A DNA stretch of 64,000 bases from positions 3,038,001 through 3,102,000 of the forward strand of contig NZ_CP034328.1 in assembly GCF_003940805.1 (NCBI RefSeq). The letters are read 5' to 3'. The notes below the pieces were generated by a model that was given only the letters and a program-made list of their open reading frames with translations, was not told where the DNA came from and searched no databases. The stretch's first letter is position 1. Every line of letters starts with the position of its first letter. Positions 2 to 20,491 of this stretch are shown here, one piece after another. Source of the stretch: Tabrizicola piscis (GTDB lineage: Bacteria > Pseudomonadota > Alphaproteobacteria > Rhodobacterales > Rhodobacteraceae). The position numbers and the translations under genes are program-made.

Positions 2-1744
2 GCAGAGGTCAGCGGCAAGATCCTGTTCACCGATCCTGCGGGCGACGGGTCTGCCGTCGACATCCTGCAGTTGCCGCGCGACGGTTTGAAGATCCGGTCG
101 ATCCGCGGCAAGCGGATGAGCCAGATTTTCCAGGAACCGATGACCTCGTTTTCGCCGATGCACACGATCGGCGACCAGATCACCGAGGTGCTCAAGATCC
201 ACGGATTGGGCAGTCCGGCGTCGCGGCGCAAGGACTGCATCGAGATTCTGGGGCTGGTCGGGTTCCGCGACCCTGCCCGCATGATCGACAAGTACCCGTT
301 CGAGCTGTCGGGCGGGATGCGGCAGCGCGCCATGATCGCGATGGCGCTGATCTGCCGGCCGGCGCTGCTGATCGCGGATGAGCCGACGACAGCCTTGGAC
401 GTGACGATTCAGGCGCAGATCATGAAGCTTTTGCGCGACCTTCAGGCCGAGTTGGGCATGGCGGTGCTGCTGATCACGCATGATCTGGGCGTGGTTGCCA
501 ACATGGCCGATGAGGTGGTTGTGCTATACCACGGCGAGGTTCTGGAAAGTGGGCCAGTCCGGGCAATCTTTGACAACCCGACGCATCCCTATCTGAAGGG
601 GCTGATGGGGGCGATCCCGCATTTCGACATGGCCCCGGGCGAACGGCTGCGCCCCCTGCGCGAGATCAAGACCTTGGGAGGAGCGGCGCTGGCCATGCTG
701 CCGGGTGCCGTCCGCAGGCCCGAGGTGGCAAAGGCCACCGGCGCGCAAAAACCGGGCGCGGCAGACGATGTTCTGCTGTCGGTCCGCGAATTGACCAAGA
801 CGTTTGCCGCACGCAAAAGCGGCGGCTGGCTGCAACCGGCACAGTTTGTGGCACCGGCGGTGGACCGCGTCAGCTTTGACGTGCGGCGTGGCGAATGTCT
901 GGGTCTGGTGGGGGAAAGCGGCAGCGGCAAGACCACGGTCAGCAAGATGCTGATGCGGGCGGTCAGCCCGGATTCGGGTGACGTGATCTACAATGATGGC
1001 AGTGGGCCGATCGACGTGATCCACGCGCAGGGCGAAACGTCGGATTATCTGCGGCGCCGGATGCAGATGATCTTTCAGGACCCCGTGTCATCCTTGTCGC
1101 CGCGCATGACCGTGCGCAACATCGTTGCCGAGCCTCTGGAGATCCACAAGATCGCCGACGGACCCGCGCGGACCGAGGCGGTGCAGGCGTTGCTGACGGC
1201 GGTCGGCCTCGACCAAAGCGCGCTGCAACGCTATCCGCACAGCTTTTCGGGCGGGCAGCGCCAGCGCATAGGCATTGCCCGGGCGCTGGCCCTTCAGCCG
1301 GAGCTTGTGGTCTGCGACGAGCCAGTCTCGGCGCTGGACGTATCGGTGCAGGCGCAGGTTCTGAACCTGCTGAAAGACCTGCAGCGCGATATGGGGCTGA
1401 CCTACCTGTTCATCTCGCACAACCTTGCGGTGGTGAACTATATGGCGGACCGGGTGGCGGTGATGTGGGCCGGGCGGATCGTGGAACTGGCCCCGGTCGA
1501 GGTTCTGATGCAGGCGCCGGTTCACCCCTATACGCGTGCGCTGCTGGCCGCGGTGCCGTTTCCCGATCTGGGCCGCCCGCTGGATTTCGAGACTGCGGCG
1601 CTGTCCAGCGATGTCGCCCGGGAAAGCTGGGCCCCGGCCTTTCGTCCGGCCGCATCCGGCGATGACATGGGCCCGGCGGACCTTGGAAACGGTCACTTCG
1701 TGTTGGCTCAGCGCAATGTCGATGCAGCGGAGTTGCGGGCATGA
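2..1744 (+). CDS. Oligopeptide-type ABC transporter ATPase, two fused ATP-binding domains (5' end outside window)
   Basis: Supplies ATP-driven power to the importer encoded by the next three genes, on the cytoplasmic face of the membrane. The reading frame is open to the left edge, so the start and the first Walker A motif lie outside; the first possible in-window start, a TTG at 71, is inside the domain and is not real. The first half shows the signature LSGGMRQR and Walker [13 protein letters not shown]. The second half has a full Walker A (GESGSGKTT), signature FSGGQRQR and Walker [12 protein letters not shown]. Each half carries the 'HPY' element after the H-loop that is typical of DppD/OppF proteins. 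The stop overlaps the next start (ATGA). Family assignment is firm; the substrate is unknown. Confidence 0.93.
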
Positions 1745-3642
1745 TCACCCGGCGCCAGACCATGGCCTTGATGGGCGCGACGCTGGCAAGCGGGATGGTC
1801 GGGAAAGGGCATGCCGAAACGGACAGTCTGGCCGACCGCGTCGCCGCGGGCGAGCTTCCGGCCATGGCGGACCGGTTGCCCAAGGTGCCGCGCGTGGTCA
1901 ACCTTGCCGCAATGGGCCGCGAGCCGGGGCGGCAGGGCGGCACGATCCGCAGCCTGATCGCTGGTCAGAGGGATGTGCGCTATATGCCGGTCAACGGCTA
2001 TGCGCGGCTGGTCGGCTATGACATGCAGTTCAACCTGCAGCCTGACGTGCTGGAACGCTATGACGTCGTGACGGACCGGGAATTCACGCTGTATCTGCGC
2101 GAAGGGCATCGCTGGTCGGATGGCAGTCCCTTCACCGCCGAGGATTTCCGCTTTTTCTGGGACGATATCGCCAACAATCCTGAAGTTTACCCGGACGGGC
2201 CGCCGGTGGAATACCTTGTCAACGGCAAGCCGCCGGTGTTCGAGGTGTTGGACGAACGCACGGTGCGCTACACCTGGGAGGACCCGGCCCCGGAATTCCT
2301 GCCCAATCTGGCGCGGCCGGCCGGGCTGCGGGTGATGGTGCCATCTGCCTATCTGAAGGCGTTCCATCCGCGCTACGGCGAGCCGGCGGCAATCGAGGCG
2401 GCGGTGGCAGAAAACAGTGTCGATGACTGGATTGCGCTTTACCAGAAACTGTCCCGCACCAATCGGCCGGAAAACCCGGTCCTGCCCACGCTGGAGCCAT
2501 GGATTCCGCGGACAGCGCCACCTGCGGACCAGTTCATCTTCGTGCGAAACCCCTTTTTCCACCGGGTCGATGAGAATGGCGTGCAACTGCCCTACATCGA
2601 CCGCCACGTCCTTGGGGTCAGTTCAGCCGAAATCATCACAGCCAAGACCGCCACTGGCGAAAGCGATCTGCAGATGGTCGGCCTGGATTTTGCGGATTAC
2701 ACGCTGCTCAAGCAGGCTGAGGATATTCATTCGATCCGGGTGAACCTGTGGAAGCGGACTCAAGGGTCGCGTGTCGCCCTTGCCCCCAACCTCAACTGTT
2801 CCGATGCGGGCTTCCGCGCCATGATGCGCGATGTGCGGGTCAGGCGGGCGATGTCATTGGCGGTCAATCGCGATGAGATCAACCTTGCGCTGTTCTACGG
2901 ATTGGCGGTTCCAAGCGCCAATACGTTGCTGCCCGACAGCCCGCTCTACAAACCGGAATACGCGCAGGCCTATGCGTCCCATGATCCGGACGAGGCGAAC
3001 CGGCTTTTGGACGAGGCTGGCTTTCAGGAACGCAATGCAAGCGGGGTGCGTCTGCTTCCGGATGGCCGGCCTGCGAACATCATTGTGGAATCGGCGGGCG
3101 AAAGCACGCTTGAGACGGATGTCCTGCAACTGATCCGGGACCATTTCCGGGAGATCGGGCTGGCGATCTTTCCCCGCAGTTCGCAGCGCGACGTGTTTCG
3201 CAGCCGCGCGCTTGGGGGCGAGGTGGTGATGTCGGTTCTGGGCGGTCTCGACAATGGTGTGGCCACTGCCGACATGTCCCCGGCGCAGTTGGCGCCGACC
3301 TTGGATGACCAGTTGCAATGGCCGTTGTGGGGGATGCATTTCCTTTCAGGTGAAAGCAAAGGCGAGGCCCCGGACCTGCCTGAGGCGCAAAAGCTTCTCA
3401 GCCTGTTCAAGGACTGGCGGATGAGCGAGACCACCGAGGAACGTGCGGCGATCTGGGCCAGCATGCTGGAAATCAACGCCGATCAGGTGTTCACCATCGG
3501 CACGGTCAATGGGTCGCTGCAGCCGGTGGTATCGGCTGGATGGCTGAAGAACTTGCCAGACGTTGCTCTCTATGGCTATGACCCGTGCAGCATGCTGGGG
3601 GTCTACATGCCGGACACGTTCTGGAGCGAGAAAGCCCCATGA
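1741..3642 (+). CDS. Extracellular solute-binding protein, family 5 (oligopeptide ABC type)
   Basis: Periplasmic receptor that hands substrate to the two permeases downstream. It is 633 residues, longer than DppA/OppA (about 530), which is common in systems for large or sugar-containing ligands. The N-terminus ([18 protein letters not shown]) has a twin arginine followed by a hydrophobic run, so export may be by Tat or Sec. Family 5 features include the '[17 protein letters not shown]' region near residue 125 and '[14 protein letters not shown]' near residue 370. It overlaps the genes on both sides by four bases, so it is translationally coupled. The ligand cannot be read from sequence; alpha-galactoside importers of this family exist, so the ligand need not be a peptide. 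Confidence 0.9.
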
Positions 3643-4643
3643 GCCTTTGGCGGTATATCCTCTGGCGCGTGCTTGCGATGGTGCCGACGCTGGTGATGAT
3701 CTCGGCGCTGGTGTTCCTGATCATCGAATTGCCGCCGGGCGACTATTTCGAAAGCTATGTCGCCGAACTGCGCGCGCTTGGTGAGGCCAGCGATCTGGCC
3801 GAGATCGAGCAGCTGCGCGAGCGTTATCATTTCGATGAACCGCTGCTCGTCCGTTACCTTTACTGGGCAGGCGGGATGTTGACGGGGGATTTCGGCTATT
3901 CGTTCGAATACCGGCTGCCGGTGTCCGAGGTGGTTGGCGACCGGCTTTGGCTGACCATTCTTGTGTCATTCGTGACGATCATCTTCACCTGGGTGATCGC
4001 CTTTCCGATCGGCATCTATTCGGCCACGCATCAGTATAGTGTCGGCGACTATGGGCTGACGCTGGTCGGCATGATCGGGATCGCCGTGCCGAACTTCGTG
4101 CTGGCGATCGTGTTGATGTATTTCGCGAACATCTGGTTCGGAACATCCATCGGGCACCTGATGGACCAGCGCTATCTTGGCGAACCGATGAGCTGGGACA
4201 AGTTCAAGTCGATCATGGAGCATCTGTGGATTCCGGTCATCATCATCGGCACGGCTGGTACGGCGGGGATGATCCGCCGCCTGCGCGCGAACCTGCTGGA
4301 TGAACTGCAAAAGCAGTATGTGGTGACGGCACGGGCCAAGGGCATGAAGCCGCTGCCGCTTTTGACAAAGTACCCGTTGCGGATGGCGTTGAATTTCTTC
4401 GTGTCCGACATCGGCTCGATCCTGCCGTCGATCATTTCGGGCGCTGAGGTGACTGCCATCGTCCTGTCGCTTGAGACGACCGGGCCGATGCTGATCAGGG
4501 CGTTGCAAAGTCAGGACATGTACCTTGCGGGGTCCTTTCTGATGTTCCTTGCGCTGCTGACAGTCATCGGGATGCTGATTTCAGACATTGCGCTTGCGTT
4601 CCTAGATCCGCGCATCCGTCTGGGTGGGGAAAGCACGAAATGA
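3639..4643 (+). CDS. ABC transporter permease, DppB/OppB type
   Basis: First membrane subunit of the importer, 334 residues. I chose the ATG at 3639 because it overlaps the previous stop as ATGA and because the protein then begins [18 protein letters not shown], the canonical DppB first helix with 'R.l..iPtl'. A longer frame from 3585 would overlap the binding-protein gene. Several hydrophobic helices follow. The cytoplasmic EAA-type loop is around 'YVVTARAKGMKPLPLL', the site that docks onto the ATPase. It overlaps the next permease by four bases. Confidence 0.92.
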   Translation: MSLWRYILWRVLAMVPTLVMISALVFLIIELPPGDYFESYVAELRALGEASDLAEIEQLRERYHFDEPLLVRYLYWAGGMLTGDFGYSFEYRLPVSEVVGDRLWLTILVSFVTIIFTWVIAFPIGIYSATHQYSVGDYGLTLVGMIGIAVPNFVLAIVLMYFANIWFGTSIGHLMDQRYLGEPMSWDKFKSIMEHLWIPVIIIGTAGTAGMIRRLRANLLDELQKQYVVTARAKGMKPLPLLTKYPLRMALNFFVSDIGSILPSIISGAEVTAIVLSLETTGPMLIRALQSQDMYLAGSFLMFLALLTVIGMLISDIALAFLDPRIRLGGESTK

Positions 4644-5815
4644 ACAAGCCGCTTCCAGAACCTGGCGCGGAACTGGAGCATTTTGTTTCAACGGCACCGT
4701 TCGACCCGAACTCCATGGCGCTGCATGTGGAACAGGAACGGGCCGGGATGACCACATCGCAGTGGCGGCTGATGTGGTGGAAGCTGAAGCGGCACCGGCT
4801 GGCCGTTGTCTCTCTGGTGTTCTTGGCTGTGATGTATATTGCGATCGCACTGGCCGAATTTCTGGCGCCCTATGGCCTTGAAACCCGCAATCTGGATGCG
4901 ATCTACGCGCCGCCCCAGCAAGTGCATCTGTTCCACGAAGGCCGCTTTGTCGGCCCCTTCGTCTATGGCCGGGATATGACGCTGGACATGGATACGCTGC
5001 GGCGGGTCTATGTCGACAACCCTGATCAGGTGAACCCCCTGCGGTTCTTCTGTCGGGGGGATGAGTACCGGTTCTGGAACCTTGTGGATGCCGACCTGCA
5101 CCTGTTCTGCCCGGCAGAGGGTGCGGATGCGTTCTTGCTTGGGACGGACCGTCTGGGCCGGGACGTGCTGTCGCGCATCCTTTATGGCGCACGGATTTCG
5201 CTGACCATCGGCCTTTTGGGCGTGGCCGTCAGCTTTGTGCTTGGCATCATCGTCGGGGGACTTGCCGGCTATCACGGCGGCTGGATCGACACGGCGCTGA
5301 CCCGGGTGACCGAAGTGCTGCAATCCATCCCAAGCATCCCGCTGTGGATGGCGATGGCGGCGGTCATCCCGATCACCTGGAGCCCCATACTCGTCTATCT
5401 ATGCATCACGCTGATCCTTGGTCTTCTGGACTGGACCGGGCTCGCGCGGGCGGTGCGGTCAAAGCTGTTTTCACTTAGAGAGGAAGATTACGTCACGGCA
5501 GCGCAGGTCATGGGGGCCGGTAGCGGGCGCATCATCGGCCGGCATCTTGTGCCGGGCTTCATGTCACATCTGATCGCAAGTGCGACGCTGACCATTCCCA
5601 GCATGATCCTTGGGGAAACCGCGCTCAGCTTTCTGGGCCTTGGGCTGCGCCCGCCGATCACCAGTTGGGGCATCTTGCTGACCGAGGCGCGCAGTGTGAA
5701 CGTGATCGCGATCTATCCTTGGCTGTTGTTCCCTGTCATTCCCGTGATCCTTGTTATCCTTGCGTTCAATTTCCTCGGGGACGGTTTGCGCGACGCAGCC
5801 GATCCCTATAAGTAG
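4640..5815 (+). CDS. ABC transporter permease, DppC/OppC type, with a long periplasmic insert
   Basis: Second membrane subunit, 391 residues against about 300 for DppC. The extra length is a roughly 90-residue segment between the first helix and 'LGTDRLGRDVLSR', which would be periplasmic and probably contacts the large binding protein. The DppC hallmark 'LGTDRLGRDVLSRILYGAR' and the EAA-type loop near 'EDYVTAAQVMGAG' are intact. It is the last gene of the transporter unit; the glycosyltransferase genes begin about 70 bases later with no terminator visible, so they may be co-transcribed. Confidence 0.92.
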   Translation: MNKPLPEPGAELEHFVSTAPFDPNSMALHVEQERAGMTTSQWRLMWWKLKRHRLAVVSLVFLAVMYIAIALAEFLAPYGLETRNLDAIYAPPQQVHLFHEGRFVGPFVYGRDMTLDMDTLRRVYVDNPDQVNPLRFFCRGDEYRFWNLVDADLHLFCPAEGADAFLLGTDRLGRDVLSRILYGARISLTIGLLGVAVSFVLGIIVGGLAGYHGGWIDTALTRVTEVLQSIPSIPLWMAMAAVIPITWSPILVYLCITLILGLLDWTGLARAVRSKLFSLREEDYVTAAQVMGAGSGRIIGRHLVPGFMSHLIASATLTIPSMILGETALSFLGLGLRPPITSWGILLTEARSVNVIAIYPWLLFPVIPVILVILAFNFLGDGLRDAADPYK

Positions 5816-5883
5816 CGACCGCCGTGGACCTGGGCCAAGCACCAGAAGCCCGGTCGTTGAGTGATTGGCCAGAAGGCAGAGAT

Positions 5884-7077
5884 ATGAAGCGTCGTTTTGA
5901 TAATGCGCGTGTGCTGATGTACAGCCATGACACCTTCGGACTTGGCCACCTCCGCCGCTGCCGGACCATAGCGCATTCGCTGGTCGAAAACTTTGGCGGC
6001 ATCACTGTGCTGATCATCTCGGGCGCAAGTATCGCCGGTAACTTCGACTATCGCGCCCGGGTGGATTTCGTGAAAATCCCAAGCGTCATCAAGCTGCGGA
6101 ATGGCGAATACACCTCGCTTTCCGAGCATATCGACGTGAAGGACACGCTTTCTATGCGGCAGGCGATCATCCGGCATACGGCAGAATCCTTCCAGCCTGA
6201 CATCCTGATCACCGACAAGGAACCGATGGGTCTGCGCGGCGAACTGGAGGAAACGCTAAGCTATCTGAAGTCGCGGGGCACCCGTCTGGTGCTGGGCCTG
6301 CGCGAGGTGATGGACGGCCCCGAGTTGCTGGATGCCGAGTGGAAGCGCAACGGAGTGATGCAGAAGATCGAGAAATACTACGATCAGATCTGGGTCTATG
6401 GCCCGCCGGATTTCTATGATCCGCTGATCGGCCTCGACGTGCCGAAATCCGTGCGCGAGAAGATGAAATTCGTCGGCTTCCTGAAACGCCGCGCGCAGCA
6501 CACCGAGCTGATGATGCACAAGCCGGTGGGGGAATACATTCTGGTCACCACGGGCGGCGGCGGCGATGGTGCGGATCTCGTTTCCGATGTGCTGGCGGCC
6601 TATCATGCGGACAAGGACCTGCCGCACAAGGCGCTGATCGTGCTGGGGCCATACATGCCGGCCGAACAACGGCAAAAGTTCCTGCAGGACGCCGCCGATA
6701 TTCCGCAGGTCGAGATGATCAGCTTCGACAGCCGCCTTGAAGAACTGATGGCAGGTGCGCGTGCCGTGGTTGCCATGGGCGGCTACAACACGTTCTGCGA
6801 GATCATGTCGTTCGACAAGCCGGCGCTGATCGTGCCACGGACCGTCCCGCGGGAAGAGCAGCTGATCCGCGCCGTCCGGGCGGCGGAGCTTGGGCTGGTC
6901 GACATGCTGCTGCCCGATGAGGCGGGCGATCCGTTGCGGCTGGCGGCGGCGCTGCGCAGCCTGCCGGAGCGCGCGCCACCGTCCCGGTCGGGCAAGATGC
7001 AGGAAATGGGTGGGCTCGACACCATTTCCACCATCCTGTCCGGCCTTCTGGTCGAGTCGACAGCGGACGTCGCATGA
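5884..7077 (+). CDS. Predicted glycosyltransferase, MurG-like GT-B fold (COG4671-type)
   Basis: Probably transfers a nucleotide-activated sugar in the cytoplasm. The ATG at 5884 is preceded by AGAAGG at a suitable distance; a longer frame from 5824 lacks a ribosome site. The N-terminal 'YSHDTFGLGHLRRC' resembles the Gly-rich acceptor loop of MurG-type enzymes. The C-terminal half has 'VTTGGGGDGADL' and 'VAMGGYNTFCEI', matching the donor-binding GGxxT/E pattern of family 28. The gene product two places downstream has the same two motifs, so the pair are paralogues flanking a GT4 enzyme. It overlaps the next gene by four bases. Acceptor and sugar are unknown. Confidence 0.8.
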   Translation: MKRRFDNARVLMYSHDTFGLGHLRRCRTIAHSLVENFGGITVLIISGASIAGNFDYRARVDFVKIPSVIKLRNGEYTSLSEHIDVKDTLSMRQAIIRHTAESFQPDILITDKEPMGLRGELEETLSYLKSRGTRLVLGLREVMDGPELLDAEWKRNGVMQKIEKYYDQIWVYGPPDFYDPLIGLDVPKSVREKMKFVGFLKRRAQHTELMMHKPVGEYILVTTGGGGDGADLVSDVLAAYHADKDLPHKALIVLGPYMPAEQRQKFLQDAADIPQVEMISFDSRLEELMAGARAVVAMGGYNTFCEIMSFDKPALIVPRTVPREEQLIRAVRAAELGLVDMLLPDEAGDPLRLAAALRSLPERAPPSRSGKMQEMGGLDTISTILSGLLVESTADVA

Positions 7078-8324
7078 CCTTGGACGCAAGGCGGCCAAAG
7101 CGGATTGTGGTGGTGCTGAAAGGCTATCCCCGCTTGTCCGAGACCTTTGTCGCGCAGGAATTGCTTGGGCTGGAGCAGGCAGGCTTTACGCTCGCGCTCT
7201 ACTCGATGCGGAAGCCGACCGATCGCAAGCGCCACCCGGTCCATGACGAGATCGTGGCACCTGTCACTTATCTGCCGGAATATCTGCATGATGAGCCGTT
7301 GCGGGTGATGCGGGCCCTATGGCGGGCTCGGCGCTTGCCGGGCTTTGGCAAGGCGCTACGGCAGTTTCTGGCCGATCTGCGGCACGATGTCAGCCGCAAC
7401 CGGGTGCGCCGGTTCGGGCAGGGGGCGGTGCTGGCGGCAGAATGGCCTGAAGGTGGCGACTGGATCTATGCGCATTTCCTGCACACACCCGCGTCGGTCG
7501 CCGGCTATGCCAGCCTTATGACTGGAATCCCGTGGTCCGTATCAGCCCATGCCAAGGACATCTGGACCTCTGACCCGCGCGAGCTTTCGCAAAAGCTGGG
7601 CGCGGCGCGCTGGGCGGTGACCTGCACGAAAACCGGGGCCGACTATCTGCGTGGGCTAAGCCCGGTGCCGGGCAAGGTGCATCTCAGCTATCACGGGCTG
7701 AACCTTGCGCGGTTTCCGACGCCTGTGGACGTGCGCCCGCCGCTGGACGGGTCGGGCGAACCGGTGACAGTCCTGAGCGTTGGCCGTGCTGTTCCGAAGA
7801 AAGGGCTTGATACCCTGCTGCGCGCGCTGGCAGTCCTGCCGCCGACCTTGGCTTGGCGCTTTGTTCACATCGGAGCGGGCGGGGAGCAGGAGGCGCTTCG
7901 CACGCTTGCCGGCGAATTGGGGATCGGGTCCAGATGCACCTTCAAGGGGTCGATGGACCAGAAGGGCGTGTTGGAAGAATACCGCGCGGCAGACCTGTTT
8001 GCACTCGCCTGCCGGATTACCGACGATGGCGACCGCGATGGCTTGCCCAATGTCCTTGTCGAAGCGGCGAGCCAGCGGCTGGCGGTGGTCAGCACGACGA
8101 TTTCCGCCATTCCGGAGCTGTTCGTCGATGGCAAGACCGGGCTTCTGGTGCCGCCGGATGATGTGCCGGCGCTGGCTGATGCGCTTACCCGGGCCATCCG
8201 CGACCCGATGCTTCGGCTGCGGCTTGGGCAGGCTGCCGAGGCGCGGGTGCGGGCTGACTTTGACTACCATTCCAGCATCACCCAGCTGACGGCGCTGTTT
8301 GAGGACGGATGGGCTGCATCATGA
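7074..8324 (+). CDS. Glycosyltransferase family 4 (GT-B, WaaG/colanic-acid type)
   Basis: A 416-residue GT4-type transferase. The N-terminal half has 'LKGYPRLSETFVAQELLGLE', a pattern common in exopolysaccharide GT4 enzymes. The C-terminal half has 'VLSVGRAVPKKGLDTLLRAL', then the donor-binding 'DGDRDGLPNVLVEAASQRL' with the E-x7-E region, then 'GLLVPPDDVPALADAL'. It overlaps both neighbours by four bases, so three transferases are translated together. The context suggests assembly of one glycan or glycolipid. Confidence 0.88.
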   Translation: MTLDARRPKRIVVVLKGYPRLSETFVAQELLGLEQAGFTLALYSMRKPTDRKRHPVHDEIVAPVTYLPEYLHDEPLRVMRALWRARRLPGFGKALRQFLADLRHDVSRNRVRRFGQGAVLAAEWPEGGDWIYAHFLHTPASVAGYASLMTGIPWSVSAHAKDIWTSDPRELSQKLGAARWAVTCTKTGADYLRGLSPVPGKVHLSYHGLNLARFPTPVDVRPPLDGSGEPVTVLSVGRAVPKKGLDTLLRALAVLPPTLAWRFVHIGAGGEQEALRTLAGELGIGSRCTFKGSMDQKGVLEEYRAADLFALACRITDDGDRDGLPNVLVEAASQRLAVVSTTISAIPELFVDGKTGLLVPPDDVPALADALTRAIRDPMLRLRLGQAAEARVRADFDYHSSITQLTALFEDGWAAS

Positions 8325-9478
8325 CGCGGATCCTGTTCTATGTGCAGCACCTTCTGGGGATCGGCCATCTGGCGCGGGCCAGCCGGATTGCGGATGCGTT
8401 GGTAAAGGCGGGGGCTGACGTTACGGTCGTCACCGGCGGCCTGCCGGTGGCGGGCTTTCCCGGCCCCGGCATCCGCCATGTTGCGCTGCCTGCGGTGGCC
8501 AGTTCTGCCAGTTTTTCAGGCCTTGTCGATGCGGCAGGCGTCCCGGTGGACGCGGCCTTTGAGGCGCGACGACGTGAACTGCTTCTGACGGCCTACCACG
8601 AGGCACGGCCCGACATTGTGCTGACCGAGGCCTTCCCCTTTGGTCGACGGCAGGTCCGGTTCGAACTGCTGCCGCTGATTGACGCGATCGAAAGCAGCCA
8701 GCCGCGGCCTTTACTCTGCGCGTCCATTCGGGACATCCTGCAGGAACGCGCGAAACCCGGTCGCGATGCCGAGACGGTGGCGACGGTCAAGGACCACTAT
8801 GACCATGTGCTTGTGCACGGTGACCCGGGCTTTGTGCGGCTGGAAGACACGTTTCCGCTGGCCGAGGCCATTACTGACAAGGTGATCTACACCGGGCTGG
8901 TTGCGGCCCCGGTTCCCGCCCCTTCGGTCGACCGGTTTGACGTTGTCGTGTCAGCCGGGGGCGGTGCGGTGGGGGAAGCGCTGATCGCGGCGGCGTTGCA
9001 AGCGGCGCAGGTCCTGCCAGACATTGCGCGCTGGTGCGTGATCACCGGGCCTAACCTGCAGCAGGATGCCTTTGACAGATTGCAAAAGCTGACGCGTCGG
9101 GGGGTGGAATTGGTGCGCTTTCGGCCAGATTTCACGGCCTTGTTGGGGGCTGCGCGGTTGTCGGTGTCGCAGGCGGGTTACAACACCGTGTGCGATATCC
9201 TTGGGGCCCGGTGTCGCGCGCTGCTGGTCCCCTTTGCCAGCGGCGGAGAGACCGAACAGACGGCAAGGGCCGAGCGGCTGGCGGCGTTGGGGCGGGTTGC
9301 CGTGCTGCCTGAGGCAAATCTGGACGGTCCAGGCATGGCCCGGGCCATTGCCGCAGCCCTTGCCTTGCCAGACCCCGACCGTGGCCCCCTGTTGCGTGTC
9401 GACGGGGCACCGCGGACAGCGGAAATCCTGTTGACCCTCGCCCAAAAAAGGGCTGCTGGTCAGACGGTGATCACCTGA
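8321..9478 (+). CDS. Predicted glycosyltransferase, MurG-like (paralogue of the 5884-7077 product)
   Basis: A 385-residue GT-B type protein. I chose the ATG at 8321 because it overlaps the upstream stop as ATGA and yields MTRILFYVQHLLGIGHLARA; an ATG four codons earlier (8309) is possible. The N-terminal 'GIGHLARASRIADAL' matches 'GLGHLRRCRTIAHSL' of the first transferase, and the C-terminal 'VSQAGYNTVCDILGA' matches 'VAMGGYNTFCEIMSF'. Its 3' end overlaps the convergent MBL-hydrolase gene by 19 bases. It closes the ABC-transporter/glycosyltransferase unit. Substrates unknown. Confidence 0.78.
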   Translation: MTRILFYVQHLLGIGHLARASRIADALVKAGADVTVVTGGLPVAGFPGPGIRHVALPAVASSASFSGLVDAAGVPVDAAFEARRRELLLTAYHEARPDIVLTEAFPFGRRQVRFELLPLIDAIESSQPRPLLCASIRDILQERAKPGRDAETVATVKDHYDHVLVHGDPGFVRLEDTFPLAEAITDKVIYTGLVAAPVPAPSVDRFDVVVSAGGGAVGEALIAAALQAAQVLPDIARWCVITGPNLQQDAFDRLQKLTRRGVELVRFRPDFTALLGAARLSVSQAGYNTVCDILGARCRALLVPFASGGETEQTARAERLAALGRVAVLPEANLDGPGMARAIAAALALPDPDRGPLLRVDGAPRTAEILLTLAQKRAAGQTVIT

Positions 9479-10290
9479 AAATCGCGGCCGCAGAACGCAC
9501 CGGGGAAGTCCGCCTGAGCAAGCTGTTCGATGGACCCAAGCTCGGCATCCGTGCGGGTGATCGAGTGGTGGACGAAACCAACGCGCTTGGCGCCCGCCGC
9601 CTTGGCCAACCGAAGCCCTTGTTGCCAGGTTGAATGCCCAAAGCCACGGAAGACCTCCATCTCGGAGTCTTCGAAGGTCGCGTCATACAGGAACAGATCG
9701 GCATCGCGGATCAAGTCGATCACTGCGGGGTCAAGCTGCCCATCGACATGTTCGGTATCGGTGATGATCGCGATGACGCGGCCGCCGAATTCGATCCGAT
9801 AGCCGATGGCATTGCCTGGATGGTTCAGCATGCCGGTTCGCACCGTCACGCCCTCATGCGGGGAAAGGATGTCGCCGGCATGAAAATCGTGGAAGTCGAT
9901 GTTGGCGCAGCACATGTCCGGTCCAATCGGAAAGAACGGCTGGCGCATGAAATTCGACAGCATTTCGCGCGTGGTCATCGCGTCGGGCATATGGCCGGAG
10001 AAGACCCGAAGCCTTGACGCAGGATCGTAGAGCGGCAGGAAGAACGGCAATCCCATGATGTGGTCATAATGCCAGTGCGAGAAGAACAGGGTGAAGTCTG
10101 TCGTGCCTGCTGCCTTCAGCGCGGTGCTGGCTTGGTAGAGCCCCGACCCGGCGTCAAACAGGATCACGTTCGGTCCGCAGCGCACTTCGAAACAGGTGGT
10201 ATTGCCGCCGAACACCTGAAAGTCCGGACCAGAAACGGGCAAGCTGCCGCGGCACCCCCAGAGCTTGATCTCGAAACGGGGCGGCACCAT
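9460..10290 (-). CDS. MBL-fold metallo-hydrolase, candidate cyclic-nucleotide phosphodiesterase
   Basis: A cytoplasmic metal-dependent hydrolase of 276 residues with no signal peptide. The metal motif is 'SHWHYDHIMG' (His72, His74, Asp76, His77); further ligands are likely at 'LNHPGNA', 'ITDTEH' and the late 'VHHS'. The opening 'KLWGCRGSLPVSG' and 'GGNTTCFEVRCG' are seen in RNase Z/PhnP/cyclic-phosphodiesterase-like members. It lies last in a minus-strand series with a cyclic-nucleotide-binding protein and a cyclase-like protein, which suggests degradation of a cyclic nucleotide; that role is inference. A 290-base gap separates it from the binding-protein gene. Confidence 0.85.
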   Translation of the reverse strand: MVPPRFEIKLWGCRGSLPVSGPDFQVFGGNTTCFEVRCGPNVILFDAGSGLYQASTALKAAGTTDFTLFFSHWHYDHIMGLPFFLPLYDPASRLRVFSGHMPDAMTTREMLSNFMRQPFFPIGPDMCCANIDFHDFHAGDILSPHEGVTVRTGMLNHPGNAIGYRIEFGGRVIAIITDTEHVDGQLDPAVIDLIRDADLFLYDATFEDSEMEVFRGFGHSTWQQGLRLAKAAGAKRVGFVHHSITRTDAELGSIEQLAQADFPGAFCGRDFQVITV

Positions 10291-10580
10291 CGTCAGTATC
10301 CGCCCGAAGCGTCCGAACGCCGGTCAGGGAAAGCTGCATGCCGCGATGGGGCATCAACATGACAGGTCAAGACTTTCCGGCGCGTGGTCAATTGCGGGTC
10401 CTTCGTTCCAGATCGCTGCGGCACCGCTTGGCCAGAGCGACCCTGACCGAAGGCAGGATCTGGACGGCGCCGGAGGCAGAAATCGGTCAACATGACCGTC
10501 TCGGCCCTGATCATGTGCGGGTTTCCGCAGCATTGTCCAGCCGCAAACAGGATTCAGAGTGGTGCAACAATCGGACGCAG

Positions 10581-11042
10581 TCAGTGCTTGGCCCGACTGC
10601 GCGCCTCGGACAATTCCGCGGTCGTGCGGCTAAGACGATCAGCGAGGACGCGGACAACCTCGATCGTCATTTCGGGGAAATCGACCAGCAGCTTGAAGAA
10701 GTTTTCTTTGCAGATCCGCAACGCCTCGACCTGGGTGGTGGCCTTTACAGTCGCGGTTCGGGCGACATCGCAGAGAATTGCAATTTCGCCGACGAAGGAG
10801 TTGCTTTCGACTTCGGCGACCTTGATCGGGCCGGTCGGGCCGTCCACCAGGATGTCAGCCTCGCCAGAAAGAATGACGTAGGCAGCGTCGCCATGGTCGC
10901 CCTGACGAAACAGGATCTCCCCCGCCCGGTAGGTCACCCGTTCGGACGTGAAGGCAAGCAGCTTCAGCTTGGCGGGCGACACGCCTGCGAACAGGGGCAC
11001 CTGCTTCAGCATTTTCACTTCGTCATTCAGCAGCATCGTCAT
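10581..11042 (-). CDS. Stand-alone cyclic-nucleotide-binding domain protein
   Basis: A 153-residue protein that is one cNMP-binding domain with short ends and no DNA-binding helix-turn-helix, so it is not a Crp-type transcription factor. The phosphate-binding cassette is intact: 'FVGEIAILCDVARTATVKA', with Glu86 for the ribose and Arg95 for the cyclic phosphate. The early 'LKQVPLFAGVSPAKL' is the usual lead-in. The C-terminal helix has leucine/valine spacing that could form a coiled coil or dock to a partner. It starts 39 bases after the ABC-like gene stops, so it is probably the sensor subunit for that protein. Confidence 0.9.
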   Translation of the reverse strand: MTMLLNDEVKMLKQVPLFAGVSPAKLKLLAFTSERVTYRAGEILFRQGDHGDAAYVILSGEADILVDGPTGPIKVAEVESNSFVGEIAILCDVARTATVKATTQVEALRICKENFFKLLVDFPEMTIEVVRVLADRLSRTTAELSEARSRAKH

Positions 11043-11081
11043 GCATTCCTCCGCGCATGTCGGACGATCTTCTTTCCGTGA

Positions 11082-13805
11082 TTATGCCGTGATCAGTTCC
11101 TTGAAGATACCGTTCTTTTGGACAAGGTCGGCGTGTGTTCCGTCCTCGACCAGCATTCCGCGGTCGAAAACGACGATTCGATCGAAGAACCTGGCTGCTG
11201 CAGGCTGTGACAGGACCCAGAGGATTGCTGGATCGCGTCCCTTGGCAGTAAGCAATGCCAACGCCTGTTGCGCGATTGCCTGCTGCGACCGTGAGTCGAG
11301 CGCAGACAGCGGACGGTTGAAGATGTAGTAGTCTGATCGGCGCAACAGGGCCCGCGCCATGCTGAGCTTTTGGCGCTGCACCGAAGTCAGCCGTTTGCCG
11401 CCCGCGCCAAGATGGAAATCCAACCCGATGATAAGCGCCGTGTCATAGAGCCCCAGCGGCTTCAACAGGCGTTCGACGGCGGCATAGATACGATCGCTGC
11501 CGTCACGATACTTCTGGCTGATCCGCCCGAAAAGCAGATTGTCGAGCAGACTGGACGAGGCGATGAACCGGGCCGGGTCGTAGACATTGAAGCCCTCGCG
11601 CAGGTCTGTCGGAAGCCCGGCATGGAACCGCTGGCGGAAGTCAACGACCTCGGACATCAGGTCTTCCGACATCAGGCCAAAGCGATAGCGGGGTTCGATA
11701 TAATCGAAGCTAAGGAGGATGATGCGGTCGCGCTCGGCCTCCGTGACGGCGACGCTGCCTGCGTCGATCTTCTGCAGCAGCGCCTGATAGGCCGGGATTT
11801 CGTCCGCGCGCATGAAGCTGAGCTGTTGAAAGAACGGGTGGTCTGGCGGCAGGTCGGCGAAAAGTTCGATGGCATTGCGGGCGATTTCCACCCCCATGTC
11901 GAAAAGCCGCCGCCCCAGACCAACACTTTTCAGGACCGAGCGGAAGTACGGGTTGTTGCCGATCCGGTCGGTGGTCAGGTCAGGATGGCTGGCGGTACCG
12001 AAAAGCATGTTCTCGATCACGGTCGCCTCGACGTTGTAGGCTCCGGGTTCGAAGGGGACGATCAGGCCGGCAAGGTCTTCGCGGGCCAGTTCTTCGCGGA
12101 GCACCTGGCGCATCGCCACGACCTTTTCGGCGAAGTCCGGATGGCGATCCAGCTGCACGGTGGATCGCAGCGCAAAGTTGAGCACGTCCCGGCTGAGGAT
12201 GACGGCATCGAGCACCTTTATGAGTTCCGCCATCAGATCTTCTTCTGACGTCAGCCCGAGGCCGGGATAATCAATCCAGCCGAAGGAAAGGTCGAAATCC
12301 GGGTTGCCGGCAAGCTCTGCCTCGCTGCGCTCCCACTCCCGATGTGCTTGTTCCGAGGCGGATGGGGGCACAGGGGGCGCCGAGATCGGGGCGTTCTTCA
12401 GGGCATAAAGCAGGTTGTCGAGCACCGTTCCGTAGAAGAAATAGCCATCCGGGCCGACATAGGTAATCGCGCGGCCCGCGATGGATTCAGGCAATGTCAG
12501 CAGGTCGACATCGCCCGCCGTCGCCCGCCCGGAACTTGGCCAGACGCTGCGCGTCAGAACTTCGGCCAGGACGTCGCCACCTGCGCCAGAATTGCCGACC
12601 ACCGCAACCTTTTCGCCCGGGTGCAGGGCAAAGTTGACCCGCTCCAAGGACATGGCACCGCTTTCGTCGATCACGCTGAGGTCAGAGGTCGCCAGCGGAG
12701 GCCGAAGTTTGCCTTCGGCAGGTTCGGACGAAATCTGATGACGTGAAGGGTCGATCAGGTCGTCGATCAGGAACTGCTGGGTCACGGTCTGGTACTTGAC
12801 GATGACGTCCTGACGGTTCTGGTCCCAGTCAATCAGCTCTTTTAACGGTCCGGGAAGATCCTTGTAGGCACCGATCACCGCGACCAACTGGCCGATATCC
12901 AGCCGACCGTTCAGGGCCAGATAGCCGCCAACTGCGTAGAACAGGAAGGGCGTGACCGAGGCGAGGAAGTTGTTGATGAACTTGACCAGAAACTTCCACT
13001 GGTAGATGTCGAAGCGGATCTTGAAGATCCGGCCAAGCCGGGCCGAAATGTCGGCGCGTTCATAGTTTGTCGTGTCATAGGCGTGGATCGTGCCGATGCC
13101 ATCGAAGATCTCGCTGACCCGACCGGCAAGTTCCCGGGCTGTAAGCTGGCGTTCGCGGCCAAGCACCAGCAGGCGGCGGCGCATCCGCGGGATGATGAAC
13201 ACCTGCACCATGACAAGGGAAAGCGTGATCAGGCCAAGCGGCACGCTTTGCACGAAGATGAAGGCCAGCGCGGTCAGCGCCTGCCCACCCAGCAGGGCCG
13301 GGGATACAAAGGCATCTCCGGTAAAGCCGCCGATCGGCTCTACCTCGTCCTTGACCATGGTGGACACTTCGGCCGCCTTCATCCGCTTGAATGCGGTGGG
13401 GGGAAAGCGAAGGATGTGGTCGACAAGGGTATAGCGAAGCCGCCGCAAAAGCCGTTCGCCCAGTCTGCCCTTGTAGGTGTTGATATAAAACTTGAACCAG
13501 CCATTCACGATGACCAGAAGCAGGAACACAAAGCTGAGTGCGAAAAGCGTTTCGAGACGGTCAAGCTGGACGCCGGGAAACAACGTCACCTCGCCCAGCC
13601 AAGGCAGGTCAAAAACAAGCCGCATGAAAAGCTGGGTGTCGTCGGGGCTGGCGAACCCCTCGCCCTGAATCGGGCCGTTGACGATCTCCTTGGGGAGATT
13701 GAACGACATGTAATAGGGGATCATCGAGAGTGCGACAATCGACAGGATCCAGAACTGCTGTACCCGCGTATGCTTCCAGATATAGCGGGTCAGGTTTTCA
13801 TCCAT
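11082..13805 (-). CDS. ABC-exporter-like membrane protein with degenerate ATPase domain
   Basis: A 907-residue protein. I chose the ATG at 13805 (MDENLTRY), with AGGAAAG upstream, over a frame starting at 13874. Residues 1-340 form an exporter-type membrane domain with about six helices. The remainder resembles an ABC ATPase but lacks the catalytic residues. The P-loop is GNSGAGGD (404-411), with the lysine and Ser/Thr replaced. The signature is LTSVQRQ (806-812), Walker B is YYIFNRP (826-832) with Asp and Glu replaced, and the switch histidine region reads 'VLSQPAAA'. About 350 residues separate P-loop and signature and hold three related motifs: TVLDNLLYA (460), TVIENMLFG (595) and SLLDNLLFG (752). 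It probably does not hydrolyse ATP. Its neighbours suggest a membrane effector or receptor gated by a cyclic nucleotide. Confidence 0.88.
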   Translation of the reverse strand: MDENLTRYIWKHTRVQQFWILSIVALSMIPYYMSFNLPKEIVNGPIQGEGFASPDDTQLFMRLVFDLPWLGEVTLFPGVQLDRLETLFALSFVFLLLVIVNGWFKFYINTYKGRLGERLLRRLRYTLVDHILRFPPTAFKRMKAAEVSTMVKDEVEPIGGFTGDAFVSPALLGGQALTALAFIFVQSVPLGLITLSLVMVQVFIIPRMRRRLLVLGRERQLTARELAGRVSEIFDGIGTIHAYDTTNYERADISARLGRIFKIRFDIYQWKFLVKFINNFLASVTPFLFYAVGGYLALNGRLDIGQLVAVIGAYKDLPGPLKELIDWDQNRQDVIVKYQTVTQQFLIDDLIDPSRHQISSEPAEGKLRPPLATSDLSVIDESGAMSLERVNFALHPGEKVAVVGNSGAGGDVLAEVLTRSVWPSSGRATAGDVDLLTLPESIAGRAITYVGPDGYFFYGTVLDNLLYALKNAPISAPPVPPSASEQAHREWERSEAELAGNPDFDLSFGWIDYPGLGLTSEEDLMAELIKVLDAVILSRDVLNFALRSTVQLDRHPDFAEKVVAMRQVLREELAREDLAGLIVPFEPGAYNVEATVIENMLFGTASHPDLTTDRIGNNPYFRSVLKSVGLGRRLFDMGVEIARNAIELFADLPPDHPFFQQLSFMRADEIPAYQALLQKIDAGSVAVTEAERDRIILLSFDYIEPRYRFGLMSEDLMSEVVDFRQRFHAGLPTDLREGFNVYDPARFIASSSLLDNLLFGRISQKYRDGSDRIYAAVERLLKPLGLYDTALIIGLDFHLGAGGKRLTSVQRQKLSMARALLRRSDYYIFNRPLSALDSRSQQAIAQQALALLTAKGRDPAILWVLSQPAAARFFDRIVVFDRGMLVEDGTHADLVQKNGIFKELITA

Positions 13806-13923
13806 GATCGGTCGTCGACTTTCCTGACAGGCGAAGGTGGGGCAAACGGTGCACGCTAAGGGAGGACCTCGCATAGCGGGGATCGAGGATGTCGAAGCGG
13901 CATTTTGCGAGAGTTTCGCGCAG

Positions 13924-15120
13924 TCAAACCTGATCGTTGGTTGTTTTCAAGCGGTTTTCGCCGCGCTGTCGGACCATGGCCTTCATGCGCACTGCGGCCT
14001 CGGCATAGCCACCTGAGGCACCATCGATGAAGTGCATGTGGTCCCGACTGAGTGCGGAGGGAACAATGCAGGTCACAAGGGCCGAGTCCTGCCGGTGGAG
14101 CCCGTAATCACACAGATTGCGCGCGGCGGCATCCGCCAGCATCGCCTCGATCCGCGACAGGTCAGCTGCGTCGACATCGACGGTCATCTTCAACCCGTCA
14201 TCGAACTTGCGGAAATCCGTGTTGTGGACGAATTGACGTGCATAGGACCGCGCGTTGAAACCGCCGAGGGACAGCCGCGTCCAATACAGGACGTAAGTGA
14301 GGATGATCTGCGCCATGACTGCGATCCGGGTCCTAAGCGCCTTGCCACGCGGCGCGGTGGCGCGCACCTCGGGTTCGACGCCAGCAAAGCTGAGCATGGG
14401 TTGCGGGCCTTCGTCGGGCAAGGGGTTCCCGGTACTGCCGGCCGTGTTCAGGATGGCGACCAGATCGGCAACCAAAGCCCGGAAGCTTTCAGGCGTGGCA
14501 TCGGTTCCCGGAACTGCGATGACGGAGACGATATTGCCGTTCCGGGCAGCCAGTGGGTTCCAGCGGCAGGAAAGCCCGGTCAGGTCGGGGCGGCTGCCCG
14601 GCTCGGCCGGGGCAATGGTGTATGCCCCCGCCTTCATCTGCGCCTCGGCCCAGGAAGAGCCGCCACCCGCAAACATCGCAAAGGTAAGGTCTGGACCGGT
14701 CCGGAAGCGGGCGACCTGCACGTCCAGACCTTGGGCCCGGATGGCCGACAGCGGCACGATGGCCACGCGCATCGTCAGGCCCAGGTCCTCGCTGATCCAG
14801 CGGGCGACTGCGGCAAGTGCCGTGCGCGTCTGGTCCTCGGCCCAGCCGGGTACGGCGATCACCGCGCCGTCGCCGCCGAAGACAAAGGGATAGTCCATCC
14901 GCCCCAGCGTGTTCAGCACTGCCGTGATCACGGACGCGCCGGCCATGTTGACCATCTTGTACTTGCCCATCGCAATCGCCTCGCTGGATGAGACGACATC
15001 GGCAACGGCGAGTATCCAGTCATCAGGCAGGGCGCGGTAGCGTGATACGTCCGCGACATCGCCGAAATCGGTGAAGACCGGCAAGGTGTCGATGTAGTCG
15101 GGCGCGATGTCGGCCGTCAT
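13924..15120 (-). CDS. DUF3095 family protein, candidate nucleotide cyclase
   Basis: A 398-residue soluble protein. The ATG at 15120 has ACAGGAGT ten bases upstream, so I prefer it to the longer frame from 15333. I recognise the family as DUF3095, which has no established function known to me. Residues 34-92 read like a GGDEF/class III cyclase core: 'WILAVADVV' with Asp41, a helix containing 'GKYKMVNMAG', then 'FVFGGDGAVIAVPG' with Asp84, matching the two metal-binding aspartates and the GGD hairpin. It is the first gene of the minus-strand set, and the next genes encode a membrane ABC-like protein, a cNMP-binding protein and a hydrolase. Synthesis of a cyclic mono- or oligonucleotide is inference from that pattern. 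Confidence 0.75.
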   Translation of the reverse strand: MTADIAPDYIDTLPVFTDFGDVADVSRYRALPDDWILAVADVVSSSEAIAMGKYKMVNMAGASVITAVLNTLGRMDYPFVFGGDGAVIAVPGWAEDQTRTALAAVARWISEDLGLTMRVAIVPLSAIRAQGLDVQVARFRTGPDLTFAMFAGGGSSWAEAQMKAGAYTIAPAEPGSRPDLTGLSCRWNPLAARNGNIVSVIAVPGTDATPESFRALVADLVAILNTAGSTGNPLPDEGPQPMLSFAGVEPEVRATAPRGKALRTRIAVMAQIILTYVLYWTRLSLGGFNARSYARQFVHNTDFRKFDDGLKMTVDVDAADLSRIEAMLADAAARNLCDYGLHRQDSALVTCIVPSALSRDHMHFIDGASGGYAEAAVRMKAMVRQRGENRLKTTNDQV

Positions 15121-15438: not shown

Positions 15439-16524
15439 ATGACACCCGCATCCGGAACGCCATGGTGGTCTTGGGCCGCCCCGACAGTCGCCATCCTGAT
15501 CGGAGCGGTTGGATTGCTGGCTTTGCACGGCGAGATTCCGGCAATCGGTTTCGTCGTCGCGGTTCCCGTGCTTTTCGCCGCTGTCTTCGCCGCTGTGCAC
15601 CATGCCGAAACCGTCGCCCATCGAATAGGCCAACCGTTCGGGTCCATTCTGCTGGCCCTGGCTGTCACTGTGATCGAAGTGTCGCTGATCGTGTCGATGC
15701 TGCTTTCCTCGCCCGAGACCGACAGCAGCATCGCCCGCGATACCGTCTTTGCCGCAATCATGATCGTGCTGAACGGGATTGTCGGGTTGTGCCTGCTGAT
15801 CGGTGGTATCCGGTTTCACGAGCAGGTCTTTCAGGCCCGAAGTGCAAGTGCGGCTCTGGGCGTTCTTGGGACACTTGCGGTCCTTGGTCTTGTGCTGCCG
15901 AACTATACGACAACGACCCCGGGCCCAAGTTACGCCCCTGCCCAGCTTGTCTTTGTGGCCGTCGTGTCCTTGGCGCTTTATGGCCTGTTTCTGTATGTGC
16001 AGACGGTACGGCACAAGGATGCCTTCCTGGATGGCGACGCAGATGACGATCAGCATGCGCCGCCGGACCGCCGCACTTTCCTGATCGCGCTTGCCCTTCT
16101 GCCGCTGTCGCTGCTGGCCGTTGTCCTGTTGGCCGAGGTTCTGGCCCATCCGGTCGAAGCTGCCATTGTCCGGTCCGGCTTTCCCGAAGCCCTGATTGGC
16201 GTCATCATCGCGCTGGTCGTGCTGATGCCGGAAGGACTTGCATCCGTGCGGGCAGCGCGGGCGAACCGGCTGCAGACCAGCATCAACCTGGCCTTGGGGT
16301 CGGCGCTGGCCAGTCTTTGCCTGACCATCCCGACGGTGGCGGTCTTGTCGATCGCCATGGGCCAAACCCTGATCCTCGGTCTTGAGGCTGAACATCTGGT
16401 GCTGCTTTTGCTGTCGCTGTTCATGGCGACGCTTACCCTGGCCACGGGCCGGACGACGGTGCTTCAGGGCGGCGTTCACCTGGTGATCTTCTTCGCCTTT
16501 CTGACGATTGCCGCGATTCCGTAG
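15439..16524 (+). CDS. chaA: Calcium/sodium-proton antiporter, ChaA family
   Basis: An inner-membrane cation/H+ exchanger of the CaCA superfamily, 361 residues with about ten helices. Two inverted halves each carry the conserved acidic repeat: 'FGSILLALAVTVIEVSL' in the first and 'LIGVIIALVVLMPEGLASV' in the second. A histidine/acid patch 'VHHAETVAHRIG' precedes the first repeat and an acidic loop 'DGDADDDQHAPPD' splits the halves, both seen in ChaA. It exports Na+, Ca2+ or K+ at alkaline pH in relatives. It sits alone, transcribed away from the DUF3095 gene and towards dabA. Confidence 0.88.
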   Translation: MTPASGTPWWSWAAPTVAILIGAVGLLALHGEIPAIGFVVAVPVLFAAVFAAVHHAETVAHRIGQPFGSILLALAVTVIEVSLIVSMLLSSPETDSSIARDTVFAAIMIVLNGIVGLCLLIGGIRFHEQVFQARSASAALGVLGTLAVLGLVLPNYTTTTPGPSYAPAQLVFVAVVSLALYGLFLYVQTVRHKDAFLDGDADDDQHAPPDRRTFLIALALLPLSLLAVVLLAEVLAHPVEAAIVRSGFPEALIGVIIALVVLMPEGLASVRAARANRLQTSINLALGSALASLCLTIPTVAVLSIAMGQTLILGLEAEHLVLLLLSLFMATLTLATGRTTVLQGGVHLVIFFAFLTIAAIP

Positions 16525-18933: not shown

Positions 18934-18946
18934 GGGAACCTCTGGA

Positions 18947-20491
18947 TCAGGATTTCGGGGACGTCCGGAAGCCACCGGTCAGGCGGTCCAGAAGCGCGTT
19001 AAGGTATAGGCCGTTCGCCAGATGGACCCGCAGACCGGCGGTTGCCGGGTGATGCGCCCACAGCGGGAACAGTGACTGAGCAAAGGCCACAAGGCCAAAG
19101 GACAGGACTGCCAGCACGATCAGCGCCCATTCCAGCGCGCCTGCGATGGGGGCGGCGGGCAGGGACGGGCCCCAGACGGTTTGTGCCACCACCTGAAACC
19201 CGAAATAGGCCAGTGCTGCGCCAAGCGAGGCGGCCACCGTCCGCCGCGTCAGTGCACCGGGCGCTGTATCGGCAAGGCCTTGGGCGATCAGATAGGACAC
19301 GCCGAAGATCAGGATCGCCCCCAGCGCCAGCGCCTGCGGCGACTTTTCCCCGACCAGCGCGGTAAACCCCGTTGCAACGGCTGCATAAAGCACCAACGCC
19401 AGCCCGAAGGACCGTGCCACTGCCGCAAGGCCCGGCACAGCCACCGGGCCGGGTTTGCGGATGGCGTTGACCGCATGGATTGCTCCACCCGACGACAGGA
19501 AGGCATGCGCCTTGTAAAGCGAATGGGCGACGATGTGCAAAAGCGCCAGCGCCCAAAGCCCCAGCCCGCATTGCAAAAGCATGAAGCCCATCTGCGCCAC
19601 AGTGGACCACGCAAGCGCGGTCTTGACTGCACTTTGCGTCAGCATCACCAGCGCACCGAAGAGGGCCGTCAACCCGCCGATCAGGGCCAGCGCCGCCATC
19701 GCGCCGGCGCTGTTCTGCACCAGCCCCGCCAGCGTGATCAGCAGAACCCCGCCCGAGTTGATGATGCCCGCATGCAAAAGGGCTGAAACCGGGGTTGGCG
19801 CCTCCATCACCTCGGTCAGCCAACCGTGTACGGGGAAGGCCGCAGTCTTGAGGACAGCCGCCAGCACCAGAAGGCCCACCGCCACCTGCGCCAGCACGGG
19901 CAGGCTGGCTGCGGTGGTCAGGGCTGCGATGTCCACGGTGCCGAAGCTGTGCCACAGAAGGAGCGCCGCAAGGATCAGCGCCAGATCACCCGCGCCCCAG
20001 ACCCGGGTGAACTTGGCCGCCGCGCGCCGCGCCTCGGCCCGGTCGGGGTAGAACAGGAGGAGTTGCCGCAGCACTAGCCCGGTCGCCACAAAGCTTGCGA
20101 CCAGTACTGGCAGGCTTGCGGCCTGTACCAGAGCTAGAACCACCGCGATGGTCGTCAGGGTCAGGGCGTGAAACCAGCCCTCGCGCGCTTCGCCATCCAG
20201 ATAGCGGCGGGAGTAGCGGACCACGACCCAGCCGACGAAGGCGACCAGAAGCGCCATGGTCGCGCTGACAGCATCCAGTCGCACGACCGGCGCATCGCCC
20301 AAAGTCAGGACCATCGGGCCGGCAAACCAAAGCTGTGCAAGCCCGCCAAGCCCAAGGCCGAGGGCGGCGAGGGCCGCAGCTTCCGCCAGCAGAGGCAGGC
20401 GGCCGGGTCGGCGACCGGGACGTGCGAGGAACAAAAGCGCCGCCACCAGCAGCAACAGGGGGGCAAGGGCAATAAGGGGAATGGGTGTCAT
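18947..20491 (-). CDS. dabB: DabB, proton-conducting membrane subunit of the inorganic-carbon pump
   Basis: A 514-residue membrane protein of the NuoL/MrpA family that couples cation flow to DabA. It has about 13-14 hydrophobic helices. The family core is seen in '[21 protein letters not shown]'-type sequence (here '[18 protein letters not shown]'), with the Lys/Glu/His residues used for proton movement, and in '[14 protein letters not shown]'. Its pairing with dabA just downstream distinguishes it from a respiratory complex I subunit. CGGAG precedes the ATG. Likely controlled by the divergent LysR protein. Confidence 0.92.

Follow-up and report, generated by a model that had tools for sequence, protein, structure and literature searches.

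A conserved bacterial gene set that probably links cyclic-nucleotide messengers to an ABC-exporter-like membrane protein

Introduction

What could be the common function of four adjacent genes that encode a cyclase-like protein, an ABC-exporter-like membrane protein with a degenerate ATP site, a cyclic-nucleotide sensor and a hydrolase? We address this question for a 64,000-nucleotide stretch of Tabrizicola piscis DNA (contig NZ_CP034328.1, positions 3,038,001 to 3,102,000; this whole stretch is called the window below), which carries these genes in a row on its minus strand. An earlier note on this DNA had read them as a self-contained circuit that makes, senses and degrades a cyclic nucleotide and acts on a membrane effector. 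According to our analysis the four genes belong to a widely conserved bacterial unit, in which cyclic-nucleotide messengers probably control the ABC-exporter-like protein. If this is true, a second messenger acts directly on a membrane protein rather than on transcription. The analysis further gives the domain of unknown function DUF3095 a testable role, and it describes a conserved pair made up of a cyclic-nucleotide sensor and a pseudo-ABC exporter. In our literature search we found neither a description of a cyclic-nucleotide-gated ABC-fold protein nor a paper naming DUF3095.

Results and Discussion

Layout of the four genes

All four minus-strand genes of the earlier note are present, and Pfam assigns a family to each. 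The row begins with the DUF3095 protein (13924..15120, 398 aa; PF11294, E 6e-122) and continues with the pseudo-ABC protein, pABC (11082..13805), which matches the exporter membrane domain PF00664 (E 2e-25) and, over part of its length, PF00005 (E 5e-9). Its length is 907 aa if the ATG at 13805 is used and 930 aa with the upstream ATG at 13874. A stand-alone protein of 153 aa with a cyclic nucleoside monophosphate (cNMP)-binding domain, CNBD, follows (10581..11042; PF00027, E 1.9e-19), and a metallo-β-lactamase (MBL)-fold hydrolase of 276 aa closes the row (9460..10290; PF12706, E 1.3e-18). The intergenic gaps are 118, 39 and 290 nt from DUF3095 onwards. Because of the short gaps at least pABC and the CNBD gene look like a single transcript; a promoter and terminator scan gave a signal no higher than in shuffled sequences.

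Pairing of pABC with the CNBD protein

From the 47 pABC genomes of one order, 28 diverse loci were chosen so that they spread over families. In all 28 the CNBD gene lies within 150 nt of pABC on the same strand, in one case (L169) as a single open reading frame; over all loci this arrangement occurs in 51 of 56. A single-chain fusion with the cNMP domain at the C-terminus of pABC was found in six of the 16 genomes checked, five from the window's family (G328, G335, G340, G303, G341) and one from another family (G400). The pairing and the fusion together are the strongest evidence of joint function. Plant symbionts, e.g. Sinorhizobium and Mesorhizobium, carry the two as separate genes; to our knowledge, the targets of cAMP in such symbionts are mostly unknown. 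Two rhizobial genomes have two pABC-CNBD pairs per stretch of about 21 kb (L104 and L116), with one pABC cut by the stretch end.

The phosphate-binding cassette of the CNBD protein reads GE..RTAT in 12/12 aligned rows, and the Glu and Arg noticed earlier are thus kept, as they are in CRP and in the regulatory domains of PKA and PKG. Unlike these proteins, the CNBD protein has no DNA-binding or kinase domain: PF00027 is the only Pfam family in its 153 aa, and no helix-turn-helix of the C-terminal CRP/FNR type was found, in line with the earlier note. A Thr stands directly after the cassette Arg, a residue that favours cGMP in PKG. The cNMP-domain proteins of bacteriocin export (TIGR03896) are likewise linked to an exporter, but the CNBD protein of the window scores 41.5 bits against a cut-off of 161, and no bacteriocin genes were identified in the locus.

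Class III cyclases of the locus

The 20 kb adjacent to the window on its left (stretch L136, same genome) contain two tandem class III cyclases (PF00211), 4.9-7.7 kb from the window's edge. Residue roles were taken from mammalian cyclases. All 10 aligned cyclases of such clusters have the two metal Asps and the catalytic Asn; the catalytic Arg is present in six and replaced by Lys in four, including one of the two in the window's genome. The cyclase at L136:12263-13705 (minus), of the type that we label CYCsol, carries Ser in place of the Lys with which class III cyclases usually recognise adenine, and its base preference may therefore be unusual. Of 80 named loci centred on DUF3095 homologues, 38 contain a class III cyclase of the membrane type that also carries a 2Fe-2S domain (PF00211 + PF00111, e.g. 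L104:8253-9932). These 80 loci are the best of 569 and hence close relatives. The 2Fe-2S domain suggests a redox input in the species that have it.

Conservation and co-occurrence

Much of the gene set of the locus is found again near these genes in records of Mesorhizobium and Cypionkella, so that the neighbourhood is common to rhizobial and Rhodobacterales records. A class III cyclase is present in 70 of the 80 named loci (the CYCsol type in 68), MBL in 58 and pABC in 23. Where pABC is present, the region within 12 kb of it contains the CNBD gene in 22 loci, MBL in 22 and a class III cyclase in 21. Much of the set is also found on two plasmids. On a Sinorhizobium meliloti plasmid, MBL and DUF3095 are found at one end of the gene set and pABC and the CNBD gene at the other. 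On a Phyllobacterium plasmid, pABC, the CNBD gene, MBL and a cyclase stand together, and DUF3095 and the importer described below are absent from the stretch.

Co-occurrence was counted in 111 genomes of one order, that of genome G171, which was taken as rhizobial because its loci resemble named Mesorhizobium loci. pABC was found in 47 genomes, a CYCsol-like cyclase (E <= 1e-40) in 46 and DUF3095 in 38, a few of which (G244, G365, G370, G379) show no more than partial matches. pABC and CYCsol occur together in 41 genomes, one of them alone in 11 and neither in 59 (p 2e-18). DUF3095 shares 35 genomes with pABC (p 3e-15), i.e. 35 of its 38, and 35 with CYCsol (p 8e-16). Urease served as a control and was counted where its match was strong (E about 1e-30 or better), in 70 of the 87 matching genomes, the 17 weak ones being dropped; it shows no association with the three (p 0.11, 0.55, 0.84). 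In a sample of 61 genomes from the window's family, taken as Rhodobacteraceae from the nearest named relatives, DUF3095 occurs in seven and pABC in ten, and all seven have pABC (p 3e-7).

A proposed signalling unit

These observations can be joined in one model. Class III cyclases, i.e. the two PF00211 enzymes beyond the window's left edge, perhaps joined by DUF3095, would make a cyclic mononucleotide, which the CNBD protein would bind as a detachable regulatory subunit of pABC. Control would run from the messenger to the membrane protein, and pABC, switched by the ligand, would serve as scaffold, gate or flippase partner instead of pumping with ATP. Clearance of the messenger would fall to the MBL enzyme, and the adjacent glycan locus with its glycosyltransferases, sugar-nucleotide dehydrogenase and importer could be the output. 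We consider this explanation, taken as a whole from the cyclases to the glycan locus, to be on balance probable.

Several points weigh against it. Seven of the 80 named DUF3095 loci contain none of MBL, the CNBD gene, pABC or a cyclase. In the 28 diverse loci, MBL is found within 12 kb of pABC in just 16, a cyclase in just 17 and DUF3095 in just three, with two more DUF3095 genes at 12-13 kb (L148, L151); the stretches of these loci are 20 kb at most, so that all counts within 12 kb in the 28 loci are lower bounds. The p values given above ignore the tree. Among 299 genomes of the phylum, DUF3095 occurs in 45 and pABC in at least 25, a lower bound since no more than seven candidates were scored in each genome; 16 genomes have both. 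No pABC match was obtained in 21 sampled DUF3095 genomes outside the class, nor in eight inside it, seven of which belong to one family. By these counts DUF3095 is broader than the module, with which it seems to be linked within a part of the class of the window. The catalytic residues of DUF3095 and the scores of MBL, both treated below, belong to the same side of the account.

There is thus independent support for a circuit with a membrane effector, as proposed in the earlier note. Yet the circuit is not self-contained and involves more than four genes: DUF3095 is seldom close to pABC in the diverse loci, further cyclases lie outside the window, and the set sits within a locus of glycosyltransferase and importer genes, its likely output. 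Co-occurrence of DUF3095 with pABC was borne out in the rhizobial order and in the window's family.

DUF3095 as a putative cyclase

A structure model predicts the C1-C2 class III cyclase fold for DUF3095, with two palm-like halves in one chain, and hence the palm-type fold that had been suspected. The solved structure that matches the model best is 6yii, tied with mammalian cyclases (Foldseek matches, VIA second look); 6yii is PaPycC, a clade A Pycsar cyclase (PMC11224242). The two metal aspartates seen in the earlier note together with a GGD hairpin are D40 and D83, which like R117 are invariant in 239/239 DUF3095 sequences. H362 and D365 are equally invariant, K304 is found in 238/239 and K162 is near-absolute. 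D40 and D83 align with the Asps of the cluster cyclases (hhalign, E 0.0028, with a probability of only 11%). The two halves and the Asp pair in the first of them are shared with two-domain class III cyclases such as mammalian C1-C2 and human soluble adenylyl cyclase. The difference is that DUF3095 has no PF00211 match, PF11294 being its sole family (Pfam, E up to 0.1), and that neither half has a recognisable catalytic Asn/Arg pair according to the alignment and its column counts. The equivalent columns, read by eye, contain mostly A/S and A in the N-terminal half and GGY in the C-terminal half. A sequence search of the PDB returned nothing useful for DUF3095.

The absence of a recognisable Asn/Arg pair is an argument that DUF3095 is a catalytically weakened relative of C1-C2 cyclases. 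In this reading it would bind a nucleoside triphosphate (NTP) and modulate the true cyclases or pair with them, and only the PF00211 enzymes would supply the messenger. The genuine cyclases in the locus and the frequency of CYCsol-type cyclases in the named loci point in the same direction, as do the loci in which such a cyclase stands directly beside DUF3095 (L120 and L182); in Agrobacterium sp. a22-2 (L120) the two form a two-gene pair. On the other hand, near-absolute conservation of seven residues (D40, D83, R117, K162, K304, H362, D365) would not usually be expected of a dead enzyme, and many DUF3095 homologues are found in genomes without pABC. We give this alternative a little less than an even chance. 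Since two PF00211 cyclases are so close to the window, DUF3095 is not the sole and perhaps not the main synthase; it may act as an additional synthase, or else bind NTP as a partner of CYCsol.

A more far-reaching idea is that DUF3095 represents a large new clade of single-chain C1-C2 cyclases with a base pocket of its own (K304, H362, D365), whose product would be read by the CNBD protein, switching the ATPase-dead ABC-fold protein and thereby controlling how a surface glycan is exported or assembled. We put this forward as a rather unlikely proposal. The family is large, with at least 5,886 homologues at E <= 0.001 among 8,000 candidates scored.

The notion that the DUF3095 neighbourhood is universal has to be rejected or at least weakened. 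Of 20 diverse stretches around DUF3095 only four (L037, L038, L039, L051) contain strong cluster genes, with a weak CNBD match in L041 (44 bits) and a weak cyclase match in L055 (55 bits). Of 12 further stretches (L174-L182, L184-L186) only L182 has a strong cyclase; L184 has weak cyclase matches only (61 and 46 bits).

The MBL hydrolase as a candidate phosphodiesterase

The HxHxDH motif reported for MBL is present, and all seven metal ligands (HxHxDH, His, Asp, His) are kept in 80/80 homologues. Its assignment as a cyclic-nucleotide phosphodiesterase is plausible by context. The protein could also be an RNase Z-like or other phosphoesterase that does not use cyclic nucleotides, as RNase Z models outscore the phosphodiesterase model (83.5 bits for TIGR02651, below the cut-off of 293, and 49.2 bits for NF041851, below the cut-off of 400), and as its sequence matches in the PDB are ELAC1 and RNase Z. 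Against this stands the position of MBL beside the CNBD gene in divergent families. In addition, PF12706 also contains Rv1339, a cyclic-nucleotide phosphodiesterase of the atypical class II kind (PMC9293780); MBL shares its fold and the cyclic-nucleotide context and is closer to RNase Z by score. We regard an activity unrelated to cyclic nucleotides as doubtful, if still of some weight. A metallophosphoesterase in the same gene row on the Phyllobacterium plasmid is another phosphodiesterase candidate.

The ATP site of pABC

The "dead ATPase domain" of the earlier note is borne out by the Walker A motif. Active ABC transporters carry Lys at the Walker A position, whereas none of 54 distinct pABC homologues does (Ala 33, Arg 14, Gly 7), and the Walker B Asp is replaced in 42 of them (Asn 41, Glu 1; Asp 12). 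Having lost the catalytic lysine, pABC would not work as an ATP-driven pump. It is possible that pABC still transports a substrate through a non-canonical ATP site or with another energy source, the CNBD protein being an allosteric brake. The conserved exporter membrane domain and the homologues with Arg at the Lys position or with the Walker B Asp kept would fit such an activity; in view of the complete loss of the Lys and the frequent loss of the Asp we find it unlikely.

With ABC exporters of the MsbA and bacteriocin-export types pABC has PF00664 in common, and the NCBIfam models for MsbA and the NHLM exporter match it, all below their cut-offs. Apart from the Walker A Lys it differs by its CNBD partner or fusion and by an insertion of about 250-300 residues, which splits the nucleotide-binding domain and is covered by no Pfam model. 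The alignment shows a [DE]N[LM]L[YF][GA]-like motif three times within the nucleotide-binding domain and its insertion, near residues 463, 599 and 756; it looks like a duplicated Q-loop segment.

The glycan locus

Next to MBL the plus strand carries three glycosyltransferase genes, which are conserved neighbours: GT28a (5824..7077) and GT28b (8309..9478), both GT28-like, and a GT4 enzyme (7074..8324). GT28a had no match in the PDB at E 0.01. Within 12 kb of pABC, the 28 diverse loci contain GT4 in 23, GT28a in 19, GT28b in 19 and the solute-binding protein in six. This protein (1741..3642), of family 5, belongs to an importer on the same strand together with permeases of the OppB (3585..4643) and OppC type (4640..5815) and a double ABC ATPase of the OppDF type (71..1744). 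The frame of the latter is open to the window's left edge (open reading frame at base 2), and the gene start may lie outside the window. Among the solved relatives of the solute-binding protein is SPH1118 (220 bits), reported to bind pectin; an acidic oligosaccharide is therefore a possible cargo of the importer. Stretch L136 adds genes for a methyltransferase, a dehydrogenase of the UDP-glucose/GDP-mannose type, another glycosyltransferase and a deacetylase-like protein. Names like "deacetylase-like" follow the annotated Phyllobacterium record; Pfam gave no family for two homologues.

As these glycosyltransferase and importer genes accompany the four genes, the latter could be mere passengers of a polysaccharide locus with no common signalling role. 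The fusion, the strict pABC-CNBD pairing and the co-occurrence of DUF3095 even when unlinked make this improbable.

Relation to Pycsar and further neighbours

The signalling unit proposed here resembles Pycsar (PycC with PycTM or PycTIR) in combining a class III-fold cyclase with a CNBD effector. It differs in that the CNBD protein is paired with an ABC-fold protein, and in its candidate phosphodiesterase and its glycan-locus context. In PADLOC, the CNBD protein matches PycTIR models (59 bits), the two PF00211 cyclases of the same genome match a PycC model (65 and 73 bits), which any class III cyclase might do, and pABC has a weak mad3 match (27 bits); no family, and hence no PycC model, was matched by DUF3095, nor any family by MBL. 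An anti-phage system of the Pycsar kind, with its effector at the membrane, is very improbable despite these matches and that of the DUF3095 model to 6yii, given the tie of the latter with mammalian cyclases, the missing PADLOC match of DUF3095, and a locus that is common to several orders and tied to glycan genes. The system rather looks like Pycsar-like logic with an ABC-fold effector in a non-defence setting.

On the other side of the row, directly upstream of DUF3095 and divergent from it, lies a CaCA-family calcium/proton exchanger (15439-16524, plus). It is followed on the minus strand (16546-20491) by DabA (PF10070, E 9.5e-246) and an adjoining subunit of the proton-antiporter type, which we take to be a DAB-type inorganic-carbon transporter pair.

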